64,000 bases of DNA from Lentimicrobiaceae bacterium (GTDB taxonomy: Bacteria; Bacteroidota; Bacteroidia; Bacteroidales; JAGNHN01), in the NCBI GenBank assembly GCA_018001695.1, contig JAGNHN010000011.1:1-64000 (forward strand), given 5' to 3'. Below the pieces are notes generated by a model. The model was given only the letters and a program-made list of their open reading frames with translations, was not told the origin of the DNA and did not search any database. The stretch's first letter is position 1, and the number at the start of each line of letters is the position of its first letter. Positions 15,783 through 19,950 of the stretch are shown in pieces. The position numbers and the translations under genes were made by a program.

Positions 15783-16181
15783 ATGAAAAGATCAACCATT
15801 ATTTTCGTTGTGGTGTCGATGGTCATCATGACGGCGCTTTTGTGGCTATTGAGTGCCCAGGGGCAAGTGAACACGTTGGACCTTGTACATGCAGGGGTTA
15901 TTCTCCTTTTGGTGGTCTTTGCTGTATTTCTGGGGATCAGCAGGGTACGCAATACGCGTAGGGGAGAACCACAAGAGGATGAGTTATCCCGCAAGCTTTT
16001 GCAGCGTGCTGCATCCATATCCTATTATATCTCGTTGTACATATGGGTCGCATTATTAATTGTGAAGGACAGGGTGGTTATTGATACAGAGCAGTTGATC
16101 GGAAGCGGGATACTGGGCATGGGGTTGGCGTTTGCCATTACCTGGGCAATACTGAACAGCAGGGGATTACAGCATGAATAA
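15783..16181 (+). CDS. Small membrane protein co-encoded with an XRE regulator (DUF2178-like)
   Basis: 132 residues with four predicted membrane segments in two hairpins: about 5-24, 32-51, 79-96 and 104-126. The loop between the pairs is charged ([21 protein letters not shown]). This layout, and an immediately following small XRE regulator, recur in many bacteria and archaea and fit DUF2178-type proteins, whose function is unknown. The gene overlaps its partner by 8 bases. It could be a membrane sensor that controls the regulator, but nothing in the sequence proves this. Confidence 0.75.
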
Positions 16182-16392
16182 CAGGATAAGGGAGTATCGC
16201 GCCAGGCACAACTTCACGCAGGAGGAGCTGGCCCGTTTGGTGAATGTGCGCCGGGAAACCATTGTTTTTCTGGAGAAGAACAAATACAATCCGAGTCTGA
16301 AGCTAGCCTTCGACCTGGCCAGGGTATTTTCAGTCAGTATTGAAACCCTTTTCTTTATGGAGGAGGATGAGAAATTAGGAATTAGGAATTAG
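16174..16392 (+). CDS. XRE-family helix-turn-helix regulator
   Basis: 72 residues, almost entirely a Cro/CI-type [22 protein letters not shown], then [27 protein letters not shown]. It matches the YozG/YgzD-like group of single-domain regulators that accompany small membrane proteins. Its start overlaps the preceding gene, so translation is coupled. The last residues (EKLGIRN) and the stop are supplied by an ATTAGGAATTAGG repeat, suggesting that repeat invasion reset the C-terminus. The inverted repeat at 15759-15776 is the likely operator. Confidence 0.88.
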
Positions 16393-16697
16393 GGCTTAGG
16401 AGCTAATTATCAGATAATTACGAATTACCTATGAAATCAATTTACAGTTATCAGTTTTCGGTGACTATTGATCGCTGATCGCTGGAAACTGATCGACTGT
16501 TTGAGGTTGGGCTCCAAAAACGAACAGGTTAAGCACTTCAACGTAACTAAAGAGAACACAACTATCTACATTAATTGTACTCCTGCTATTCAAGACTCAT
16601 TCTAAATATAGAAAAGAAATGCGTATGATTATTATGTTTCGTAAATTTACGAACAACAATTCATGGATTTTTTCATCCTGATACAAGCACTCCAACG
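16376..16697. repeat. Intergenic repeats and cytochrome leader
   Basis: Bases 16376-16393 are tandem TTAGGAATTAGG units; 16418-16430 has the ACGAATTACC type; 16444-16490 has CAGTTATCAG and GATCGCTGATCGCTGG units of the family seen at 595-660 and 1518-1572, here in the opposite orientation. From 16500 to 16697 there is no repeat and no gene. A perfect 16-bp palindrome TTCGTAAATTTACGAA lies at 16638-16653, 45 bases before the cytochrome gene, and is a candidate operator. Confidence 0.7.
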
Positions 16698-19181
16698 ATG
16701 AAAAAAACGATCCTTCTCTGGCTCATTGCAATCGCAGTAGCATTTGTGATCATTACGGGATTGGCAGGTACCGGAGAAAGAACCGCCCCTGCCACATTCG
16801 GGCGAAATCTCATCACACAAGCAGGCGTCTGCCCTCCTTTCTTTTTATATGATGAAGCGGGTGCCCTTATAGATCCTGTGCATGATATCAACAGTAACAA
16901 ACCATACTCACCAAGGCAAACATGCGGTAAATGCCACGATTACGAAAAAATCACGCAGGGATTCCATTTTCAGCAGGGTAAAGATGAAGCAGCAGCTCAA
17001 AGCTACACAGATCGGTATCAATGGGTTACACACCCAGGCAACTATGGTGGAAACTGGTGTTCTCCGGCACCCCTGTACAACTACCTTTCACAAAAACAAA
17101 ACACAGGTCCACGGGAAATGGACATGACGTCCTTCACATTCATAACCAGCGGGTGTGGGTCTTGTCATCCCGGTGGTGGTCCGCTTGAGTATGACCGAAA
17201 CGGTTATCGTTATGACCGCTACATGGATAGTGTTGGTTACACGGCCGGAGGGATCAACGACTATGATGGTGACTATTACAAGTCCCATTGGAACCGCAGC
17301 GGTGTCGCTGAAGGCGACTGCAATATGTGTCATTATCCGGAATATGATTTCAAGGAAAGAAATGCGCATTTGGCAAAATGGAACTTTCGATGGATGGCTA
17401 CGGCAGGGTCCGGATTGGCCAGGGTGGATGGCTCTGTTAAGGACAATACGCAGATAAGCCTGGTTTACGACCTGCGTAAGTTTGACAATGAAGGCAAACT
17501 GTCGATGCACCTTGTTCGCGAACCACGAAATCAGGCCTGCCTGAATTGTCATTCCAAACCTCAATGGAAAAAGCGGGGTGCTTCCTTTACCCCATTCACG
17601 GATGTCCATATTGCAAAAGGCCTTAAATGTGTGGACTGTCACCCTGCCGGTTCCATGGCCGTGGACCCAAGGATCAATGGCAAGGAAACACATCAATTTG
17701 GCAAAGGGGATGACCCTGGTGGCCAGGTCAGAAACGACTTAGATAATACCATGCGCACATGCGAAGACTGCCATATTAGTGGGTATCTGAATGCCCCTAT
17801 TGCCAGTCATAACTGGTTACCTGCCTTGCATCTGGAAAAGCTGAGTTGCCAAGCATGCCATATCCCACAGCGCAAGGTCAAGTCGGCACTGGTTCAAACC
17901 AGCGATGTCTTCAATCCAGGAACGAAGATCAATCCTCCTTCCAAATACATCTGGACTTTCTATGACCAGTATATGGCATACTGGAATCATTACGGTGAGC
18001 TTAGCATGTTTACCGCCGCCGATCAGCCAACGGATCCGTTTGTTCCGGTATATGCCAGGTATAAAGGCAAGATATTTCCCATAAATGCGGTGCACAGCGC
18101 ATGGCCCGGCATAGAGACCGAAGGGAAGCCTGGGCTCCATCAGCCGAGGATGAAAGATATTTATGAAATGTGGATGTCACATCGCACTGACAGCACGCAA
18201 TATGCCCTTCTGAGCGTGATACGTGACGACAACCTTGATGGAATTCCGGAAGTGAACCGTGCGGAGGAAATTGATGCCTTTATTGAATCGGTCAGTTCAC
18301 ATCTCCAACAATCAGGGTATGACCTGGATTCCGGACGCAGGGTGGTCTGGGTTAACAATGACAGAATATATTACAATGGAAACCAATTCAAACTTATTGA
18401 GAAAGAACTACATGAATCAAGTCCCTATGCTTCCGTTCACAAGTACAGTCATGATGTCTTTCCTGCCCGGGCAGCCCTGGGTTCCAGGTCTTGCACAGAA
18501 TGTCATTCCTCCCGGTCTGATTTCTTCTTTGCCCAGGTAGTCAGGTATCCGTTTGGGGATGATGCTAAACCTGTCTACGAGATCCAGTATGAAAAGCTAG
18601 GATTGGCAAAATACCAGGTGTGGAGTTCTGTTGTCCGGGAACAGTATATTAAGCCGGTCAGCTTTGTTGCCATGACATTGCTACTGCTATGGCTTTTATT
18701 AAGCTTGATCCTCCATGTCAATCTCCGTTTGGGATTGATTGGTATGAGCCGTTCGCTACTCTATTTTTTTTGGACTATCATGCTTGCTTTTCTGGTCCTG
18801 GTTTTTCTGCGTCCGGATTTGCATTCCTATATACTACCGGAACCGATCTGGATCGACAGTAATCATTTCTATATCTGCATTGTTGCATTCCTGGCAGGGG
18901 TTTATTTCTGGATGGATTTCAGAAACAAGCATCAAAGGAGGCATTGGGTGACCTGGTCAATGGGATTTTTTGTTGGCCTGGCGTTTTTCAGCGGCGTGCT
19001 GATGCTGCTCAAATGGCAAGCCATTGATACAATGGTGCGGGTCGCTTATACGCTTTTTGACACATCCATTCTGTTGCTATTACTAGCTTCCATCGTATTG
19101 CTCATGCAATGTCAAAACAAGACTGTAGCAAATCAAGAACTTTCATATCATGCATCAACCGGAGGAGAATTGCCATCATAA
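16698..19181 (+). CDS. Octaheme c-type cytochrome with C-terminal five-helix membrane domain
   Basis: 827 residues. An N-terminal signal or anchor helix (about 4-22) exports the protein. Eight CxxCH heme sites begin at C76, C153, C208, C281, C311, C355, C384 and C599; none has the CxxCK or long-spaced form. From about 653 to 820 five hydrophobic helices anchor the C-terminus, with several histidines at helix ends. The design suggests electron transfer between a membrane quinone pool and periplasmic or surface partners. It resembles uncharacterised multiheme cytochromes of anaerobes rather than NrfA, Otr or MccA by motif content, so substrate and direction are unknown. A rhodanese-like gene follows directly. 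Confidence 0.88.
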   Translation: MKKTILLWLIAIAVAFVIITGLAGTGERTAPATFGRNLITQAGVCPPFFLYDEAGALIDPVHDINSNKPYSPRQTCGKCHDYEKITQGFHFQQGKDEAAAQSYTDRYQWVTHPGNYGGNWCSPAPLYNYLSQKQNTGPREMDMTSFTFITSGCGSCHPGGGPLEYDRNGYRYDRYMDSVGYTAGGINDYDGDYYKSHWNRSGVAEGDCNMCHYPEYDFKERNAHLAKWNFRWMATAGSGLARVDGSVKDNTQISLVYDLRKFDNEGKLSMHLVREPRNQACLNCHSKPQWKKRGASFTPFTDVHIAKGLKCVDCHPAGSMAVDPRINGKETHQFGKGDDPGGQVRNDLDNTMRTCEDCHISGYLNAPIASHNWLPALHLEKLSCQACHIPQRKVKSALVQTSDVFNPGTKINPPSKYIWTFYDQYMAYWNHYGELSMFTAADQPTDPFVPVYARYKGKIFPINAVHSAWPGIETEGKPGLHQPRMKDIYEMWMSHRTDSTQYALLSVIRDDNLDGIPEVNRAEEIDAFIESVSSHLQQSGYDLDSGRRVVWVNNDRIYYNGNQFKLIEKELHESSPYASVHKYSHDVFPARAALGSRSCTECHSSRSDFFFAQVVRYPFGDDAKPVYEIQYEKLGLAKYQVWSSVVREQYIKPVSFVAMTLLLLWLLLSLILHVNLRLGLIGMSRSLLYFFWTIMLAFLVLVFLRPDLHSYILPEPIWIDSNHFYICIVAFLAGVYFWMDFRNKHQRRHWVTWSMGFFVGLAFFSGVLMLLKWQAIDTMVRVAYTLFDTSILLLLLASIVLLMQCQNKTVANQELSYHASTGGELPS

Positions 19182-19182
19182 A

Positions 19183-19584
19183 ATGCTATCGTTTCATTCT
19201 GTAGATGGTAAGCTTGTTATAGGTCCGTCAGAGCTATACTCATTGCGGGATTCCGTGGACATCTGTGTCTTAGATGTCCGGGAAACCTACCTTTCATACC
19301 ACAAGCGAATGGGATTGAATAACATCATGTATATACCGCTGAGCGAATTACATGAGAAGCACTCCCTGATTCAGGCCGGTAAACTGTGCATTTTGGTTGA
19401 TGCCGCAGGGTTGCGGAGTAAGGAGGCCTACCTGCTTTTGCGAGAACTGGGCTATACACAATTAGCCATTTTAGGGGGCGGAATGATTGAGTGGGAAAGG
19501 GCAGGATTACCTGTCGTTACCGATCGGCTTGAACAACTTGATGGATCCTGCATGTGCCAGTTGAAAGGGCGGAGCAGAGATTGA
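19183..19584 (+). CDS. Rhodanese-like protein lacking the catalytic cysteine
   Basis: 133 residues from the ATG at 19183, one base after the cytochrome stop. The rhodanese fold is visible in VCLDVRE-like ICVLDVRET, the MYIPLSEL strand and the C-terminal AILGGGMIEWERAGLPV. The active-site loop reads VDAAGLRS where active enzymes have xCxxGxRS, so the catalytic cysteine is replaced by D73; C69 is four residues earlier. A C-terminal tail carries C123 and C125 as a CxC pair. Thiosulfate sulfurtransferase activity is therefore unlikely, and a binding or relay role is possible. GGAGGAG at 19161-19167 may serve as its ribosome binding site. An earlier in-frame start at 19150 overlaps the cytochrome. 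Confidence 0.8.
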   Translation: MLSFHSVDGKLVIGPSELYSLRDSVDICVLDVRETYLSYHKRMGLNNIMYIPLSELHEKHSLIQAGKLCILVDAAGLRSKEAYLLLRELGYTQLAILGGGMIEWERAGLPVVTDRLEQLDGSCMCQLKGRSRD

Positions 19585-19740: not shown

Positions 19741-19746
19741 TTCAGG

Positions 19747-19830
19747 TACCCGGAGCGGGAGTCGAACCCGCACAGCCGTGGGGCCAAGGGATTTTAAGTC
19801 CCTCGTGTCTACCAGTTCCACCATCCGGGC
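19747..19830 (-). tRNA. tRNA-Leu (anticodon TAA)
   Basis: 84 nt including the discriminator A at 19747. The acceptor arms GCCCGGA and TCCGGGT pair with one G-T wobble, the anticodon loop reads CTTAAAA, there is a long variable arm as expected for leucine, and the T-loop is GTTCGACTC. The 3' CCA is not encoded. Confidence 0.95.
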
Positions 19831-19877
19831 AGACAGTAAAAAACCTCCCGTATCTGAGAGGTTCTTGTTCGATGCTG

Positions 19878-19950
19878 AGCGGAAAACGGGACTCGAACCC
19901 GCGACCCTAACCTTGGCAAGGTTATGCTCTACCAACTGAGCTATTTCCGC
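19878..19950 (-). tRNA. tRNA-Gly (anticodon GCC)
   Basis: 73 nt. The acceptor arm starts GCGGAAA, the D-arm is GCTCAGTTGGTAGAGC, the anticodon stem ACCTT/AAGGT holds GCC, and the T-arm is GCGGGTTCGAGTCCCG-like. CCA is not encoded. It is transcribed before tRNA-Leu, 47 bases upstream of it on the minus strand. Confidence 0.95.

Follow-up and report, generated by a model that had tools for sequence, protein, structure and literature searches.

The 64,000-nucleotide stretch of DNA analysed here (the window) carries two adjacent and co-oriented genes that encode an octaheme cytochrome c with a C-terminal membrane domain and a rhodanese-like protein. They are preceded by a perfect 16-bp palindrome, TTCGTAAATTTACGAA (Table 1). 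Upstream of the pair, at 15783–16391, a 132-aa membrane protein is encoded and then a small XRE-type regulator, both apparently unrelated to it. Directly downstream, tRNA-Leu and tRNA-Gly (19745–19950, minus strand) form a possible insertion hot spot.

Table 1. Features of the locus, with positions in the window and residues of the encoded protein
Feature	Position	Strand	Remark
Perfect 16-bp palindrome	16638..16653		Probable operator of ArsR type; the cytochrome start codon follows 44 nt downstream
Octaheme cytochrome c with C-terminal five-helix membrane domain	16698..19181	+	827 aa
Heme motif 1, CGKCH	16923..16937	+	aa 76-80
Heme motif 2, CGSCH	17154..17168	+	aa 153-157
Heme motif 3, CNMCH	17319..17333	+	aa 208-212
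Heme motif 4, CLNCH	17538..17552	+	aa 281-285; candidate catalytic heme
KKRG, followed by a conserved DVH	17568..17579	+	aa 291-294; kept in 19/19 aligned orthologues
Heme motif 5, CVDCH	17628..17642	+	aa 311-315
Heme motif 6, CEDCH	17760..17774	+	aa 355-359
Heme motif 7, CQACH	17847..17861	+	aa 384-388
Heme motif 8, CTECH	18492..18506	+	aa 599-603
Five-helix membrane domain	18609..19160	+	aa 638-821
Rhodanese-like protein	19183..19584	+	133 aa from the likely start; the ORF opens at 19150

The cytochrome and the rhodanese-like protein

The eight CxxCH motifs of the cytochrome stand against a mean of 0.02 (maximum 1) in residue-shuffled versions of the protein. All 16 heme Cys and all eight heme His are unchanged in an alignment of its full-length relatives. 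His 90, 304, 332, 371, 378, 431 and 585 are also invariant there and could be distal heme ligands, and 47 columns between the heme motifs remain invariant down to 30% identity. The genome also encodes cytochrome c assembly proteins. A profile search found no characterised cytochrome family that names the whole protein above its own cut-off, and a direct sequence search of the PDB gave no useful match. The window thus encodes a genuine eight-heme membrane protein that appears to be undescribed, in keeping with an earlier note on this DNA; a search of the open-access literature likewise found no description of it, or of any octaheme cytochrome in ars operons.

The hydrophobicity of the C-terminal domain has four or five peaks, and an AlphaFold model places membrane helices at residues 638–678, 685–704, 723–744, 749–771 and 774–821, a region mostly at pLDDT 70–87. 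The heme core is poorly modelled (mean pLDDT 60 for the full protein and 55 for the ectodomain), so that heme ligands are not readable from it, and a comparison of the heme-core models with PDB folds gave no structural match. The structure prediction called for by the earlier note thus yielded five membrane helices with fair confidence but an unreliable heme core.

A scan of genome contigs recovered 25 loci encoding such cytochromes, 21 of which (L002–L022) are orthologues with 47–67% identity from Bacteroidales, Kapabacteria, Latescibacterota, Pirellulales and Omnitrophota. The four more distant relatives (L023–L026, 25–30% identity) stop after the heme domain, which makes the membrane fusion a mark of the window's cytochrome family. 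This family is rare (9/393 sampled genomes of the taxonomic order and 2/395 of the phylum, the window's genome being counted in both), and nearly all of its members come from metagenome-assembled genomes. A search for plasmid-borne copies found none.

The second gene encodes a rhodanese domain (Pfam PF00581, 31.6 bits for a cut-off of 22.2). Its listed ATG, at 19150, would make it overlap the cytochrome gene by 32 nt; on the evidence of the sequence and of the family alignment, an in-frame ATG that begins one base past the cytochrome stop codon (19183) is the likely start. Whichever start codon is used, the two genes remain neighbours on the same strand. In the long ORF, Asp84 (codon 19399–19401) occupies the position of the catalytic Cys, CILVDAAGLRSKE, so that the protein lacks the active-site residue of catalytic rhodaneses, and its tail, GSCMCQ, contains a CxC motif (19549–19557). 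In an alignment that includes a few loci fetched twice, the Asp is found in all rhodanese homologues but one, a paralogue from L044, and the CxC tail ends nearly all the full-length ones. A literature search found no published description of such a family. The earlier note had described both proteins in these terms; the open reading frame, the invariant motifs and the AlphaFold model bear it out for the eight motifs and the five-helix domain in a single chain, as do PF00581 and the alignment for the adjoining protein with its Asp and CxC tail. The same genome encodes a second rhodanese (C63:32901–33293; L079:8710–9306), which has kept the Asp, has no CxC tail and is not near ars genes.

Heme 4 and the link to quinones

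The closest comparison for the heme domain is the octaheme tetrathionate reductase (OTR) family (TIGR04315, PDB 1sp3). Both have eight CxxCH motifs, of which hemes 4–8 align in order, with a K-[RH]-G...DVH sequence after heme 4 and 'CQ[AT]CHIP' at heme 7. The window protein differs from OTR in having a membrane domain and in the greater length (about 210 aa) of the segment that precedes heme 8. In a profile comparison, its KKRG...DVH aligns with the VKHG...DVH of OTR, whose Lys we take, from the 1sp3 structure, to ligate the active-site heme. The profile–profile alignment (hhalign) reaches 97.8% with a score of 104.8; controls in which the columns between the motifs were shuffled (30 trials) gave a mean score of 68 and a maximum of 95.9 (97.4%), which indicates that the score depends mostly on how the hemes are spaced. 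For this reason, and with 30.7 bits for a TIGR04315 cut-off of 375, membership of the OTR family is not claimed. OTR-like catalysis at heme 4, possibly with a Lys ligand, may nevertheless be put forward, as a reasoned proposal rather than a demonstrated homology.

A profile search of the PDB retrieved OTR at an E-value of 0.045 only, and NrfA chains at 0.27–2. The latter weak matches, together with the ability of Shewanella OTR to reduce nitrite and hydroxylamine (according to a title listed in PMC7887784), would fit a divergent NrfA/HAO/OTR-type reductase of nitrogen oxides, acting on nitrite or hydroxylamine. Such an enzyme is very improbable here: the eight motifs are plain CxxCH without the CxxCK of NrfA, as the earlier note had recognized in setting the protein apart from NrfA, no NrfH or nitrate genes are found nearby, and the cytochrome belongs instead with an ars regulon (see below). 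The note also set the protein apart from MccA, which is recognized by an atypical CX15–17CH heme, and from hydroxylamine oxidoreductase (HAO), with its cross-linked heme; the motifs seen in the window protein are all CxxCH.

The membrane domain contains an invariant His723 (18864–18866) and conserved Pro714, Asp720, Gly766 and Asp788. Having a single conserved membrane His, the window protein is distinct from the diheme cytochromes b of the FdnI/HydC type. Two relatives only, L018 (7890–10610) and L030 (5033–7825), carry an FdnI-like cytochrome b domain in place of the five-helix domain; the one in L018 matches, and the one in L030 aligns with, the gamma subunit of formate dehydrogenase. This swap leads us to read the five-helix domain as a quinone module, and the cytochrome is thus probably linked to quinol. 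Its topology would place the Pro714/Asp720/His723 loop on the periplasmic side, beside the hemes. The self-contained connection to quinones suggested in the earlier note is therefore plausible as far as the membrane link is concerned, but a respiratory module made of these two genes finds no support.

The palindrome and the ars regulon

Fewer than one match to the palindrome is expected in the window with up to three mismatches (0.16). With up to two mismatches, 19 copies occur in 514 kb of fetched loci, where six control palindromes average 0.67; most of the 19 lie 20–70 nt before ArsR, ArsF/thioredoxin or ArsP genes in the relatives. In its own genome, the exact palindrome is found once, before the cytochrome gene. 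Nine further sites have up to three mismatches, and the single one with two mismatches and two others fall within C13:42–57 kb (binomial P of about 8e-6 for this clustering). As the genome-wide total of 10 does not exceed that of a backwards-pattern control (11), the informative part is the location of the sites and not their number. A degenerate operator pattern had been informed by an island site, and was replaced by the scan with the exact palindrome. The region concerned is an ars island (C13:42000–57191; L029 and L087) encoding ArsC, ACR3, two ArsR, ArsP_1, two ArsF and ArsG. The three copies stand there at operon heads: before the c39/c40 genes beside ArsR, before a thioredoxin-like ORF near ArsR-ArsP, and before ArsF-ArsG.

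No ars gene lies beside the pair in the window. At least one gene for ArsR, an ArsP_1 permease, ArsG, ArsF, ACR3, ArsC or ArsM is nevertheless found within 6 kb in 27 of the 28 related loci, from Bacteroidota, Omnitrophota, Latescibacterota and Planctomycetes, the exception being L016 (Planctomycetes). Some pairs of loci share an assembly (L005/L006 and L019/L022). Over the 29 loci, the most frequent neighbours are ArsR (19), the ArsP_1 permease (16), ArsG (15) and an ArsF/thioredoxin cluster (12); ACR3 (six), ArsC (three) and ArsM (three) are rarer. Representatives exceed the curated cut-offs for ArsG (311 bits for 200), ACR3 (442 for 283), ArsF (106 for 60) and ArsM (312 for 263), and the ArsR of the Omnitrophota and Latescibacterota loci carry a CVC motif of the As(III) type. 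A frequent arrangement in Bacteroidales is ArsR-rhodanese-cytochrome-ProC-like, with 10–52 nt between the rhodanese and cytochrome genes. ArsG is encoded by all nine cytochrome-bearing genomes of the order; it is also widespread there (207/393 genomes above the cut-off), so that the evidence lies in its adjacency at 15 loci and not in its presence. With one or two ArsG copies per 3.6 Mb, such proximity (6 kb) would arise by chance in well under 2% of cases. Taken together, the ars neighbourhoods and the shared palindrome assign the pair, as a sequence-based prediction, to an ArsR-type metalloid regulon, of which it would very probably be a physically separate member.

The co-occurrence of the two genes extends beyond this genome, so that the refuting outcome named in the earlier note, an absence of such co-occurrence, does not hold: at 12 of the 29 loci (window included) no more than 6 kb separates them, and in seven they are directly adjacent. 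The rhodanese is nevertheless not specific to the cytochrome, with which the earlier note had paired it. Homologues are encoded by 76/393 genomes of the order, compared with 9/393 for the cytochrome, and are absent from five of the nine cytochrome-bearing genomes (present in four), so that the association is not obligatory. At 24 of the best 28 rhodanese loci, which were re-read, the distance to an ars-type gene is at most 1.5 kb; in most of them no cytochrome is in view. The rhodanese is thus an ars-island protein in its own right, which sometimes shares an operon with the cytochrome.

These neighbourhoods also bear on the sulfur chemistry that the earlier note had emphasized. The pair could serve the respiration or detoxification of tetrathionate, thiosulfate or polysulfide under a persulfide-sensing regulator of the ArsR family: some repressors of this family (BigR) sense sulfur species, the cytochrome distantly resembles OTR, its neighbour has a rhodanese fold, and several source sites are sulfidic according to their record titles. 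The recurrent neighbours are, however, arsenic exporters, ArsC and ArsM and not Pdo, Sqr, Sox or Ttr; the catalytic Cys is missing from all aligned rhodaneses but the one paralogue; and the BigR model scores 26–40 bits for a cut-off of 155. This role is thus quite unlikely, and the ars neighbourhoods and the shared operator point instead to a metalloid regulon. The cytochrome is probably a heme enzyme that handles toxic arsenic-type compounds and not a general sulfur-respiration module; a 'respiratory' role is unproven, and detoxification fits better.

A proposed arsenical reductase and competing roles

The best explanation, to be held tentatively, is that the pair is an operon lying apart from the rest of a regulon for metalloid resistance, most likely to arsenic, under ArsR control, and that it provides a quinol-fed octaheme enzyme that reduces arsenicals. 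The process would run as follows. On binding its ligand, an ArsR-type repressor would leave the palindrome at 16638, allowing the expression of a membrane-anchored periplasmic octaheme oxidoreductase and of a cytoplasmic rhodanese-fold protein with a CxC tail. Menaquinol would donate electrons to the five-helix domain on its periplasmic side, at the conserved Asp720/His723 loop; these would run through the hemes to heme 4, perhaps Lys-ligated, where an oxidized arsenical (arsenate, a thio- or an organo-arsenical) would be reduced. ArsG, ArsF, ArsP and ACR3 would then move the product or process it further. The CxC tail of the rhodanese-fold protein may bind or pass on metalloid or sulfur, with no sulfurtransferase role. 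The putative reductase would work beside a thiol branch comprising cytoplasmic thioredoxin, ArsG (DsbD-like) and ArsF. That the cytochrome reduces an arsenical is possible, though this step is less secure than its being an enzyme.

The same regulon could also operate in the reverse direction. The cytochrome would then act in the periplasm on As(III) or methyl-As(III) that has been exported, oxidize it to a less toxic pentavalent form and deliver the electrons to the quinone pool, taking the place of arsenite oxidase or ArsH under anaerobic conditions. The presence of exporters of trivalent arsenicals (ACR3 and the ArsP/ArsG families) among the commonest neighbours would agree with this, as would the FdnI-type domains of two relatives, since a domain of this type reduces quinone in formate dehydrogenase-N. 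From established potentials, however, menaquinol is able to reduce As(V) and menaquinone takes up electrons from inorganic As(III) poorly, and reduction is therefore favoured. The adjoining ArsG (DsbD-like) and thioredoxins also suggest a reductive periplasmic chemistry, and OTR and NrfA act as reductases. Oxidation is consequently unlikely.

Alternatively, the cytochrome might be a metalloid-induced electron relay without arsenical chemistry of its own, passing quinol electrons to periplasmic ArsF/thioredoxin-like proteins, to the outer membrane protein that resembles a porin or to some other acceptor, and thereby keeping periplasmic thiols reduced or depositing metal. ArsF, periplasmic thioredoxin-like lipoproteins and a beta-barrel protein (7/29 loci) are indeed conserved neighbours. 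Two systems of Geobacter offer parallels. CbcL, an inner-membrane quinol oxidase for extracellular electron transfer, is likewise a single chain that carries c-type hemes in its N-terminal part and ends in a membrane domain (PMC6295460), but its c-hemes number nine and it has b hemes in six HydC/FdnI-like helices, whereas the window protein has eight hemes, five helices, one conserved membrane His and an ars context. The Ext cluster (extHIJKLMNOPQS), which acts in selenite/tellurite reduction, encodes a rhodanese-like protein and a porin together with multiheme cytochromes (PMC5877670). Its cytochromes are different (the ExtN/ExtO models score 14.5–14.6 bits for a cut-off of 200), and Fur-linked control and the 49-kDa ExtH are features of its own. 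Against a relay, the very strong conservation between the motifs (the 47 invariant columns) suggests a catalytic site and not a wire. Such a relay is therefore not very likely, and the cytochrome seems somewhat better regarded as an enzyme.

The arsenical-reducing enzyme proposed here would belong to operons that resemble the bacterial ArsF/ArsG/ArsP ars operons of organoarsenical resistance, with the same regulator family, neighbours and operator. To our knowledge, the respiratory arsenic redox enzymes (Arr, Arx and Aio) are all molybdenum enzymes and the cytoplasmic reductases of arsenic resistance are thiol enzymes. It is conceivable, if somewhat doubtful, that the cytochrome represents a new class found in anaerobes of several phyla, namely an ArsR-controlled heme enzyme that directly reduces or oxidizes periplasmic arsenicals with the quinone pool. 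A paper on 'alternative arsenite oxidation' in Thioalkalivibrio (PMC6620896) contains no multiheme cytochrome. If the proposal is correct, heme chemistry would enter the anoxic arsenic cycle through an octaheme cytochrome that is linked to quinones and controlled by ArsR, and a testable function is offered for a conserved cytochrome family of unknown role and for the rhodanese family with Cys-to-Asp replacement and CxC tail.

Other genes recur at the related loci. The islands also hold possible Zn/Cu/Cd exporters (an SO_0444-like permease, CDF and RND), a point against the arsenic reading. The permease resembles SaoE, but it falls below the model cut-off and no other gene of the SAO (organometallic) selenoprotein system was seen, so that this system was rejected. 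A ProC-like protein (pyrroline-5-carboxylate reductase family, below cut-off) often adjoins the cytochrome (L009:10421–11194 and 10 other loci), and directly 3' of it, in several loci (L010:10334–11665, L044:11501–12814 and L015:10405–11772), lies a gene for a porin-like beta-barrel of about 440 aa. Lastly, ars islands repeatedly contain a two-gene set (L081:10873–12177, L019:6207–7586 and L087:1704–3016) for a small lipoprotein and for a protein of about 320 aa with a QCC sequence; in one case it follows the palindrome directly.
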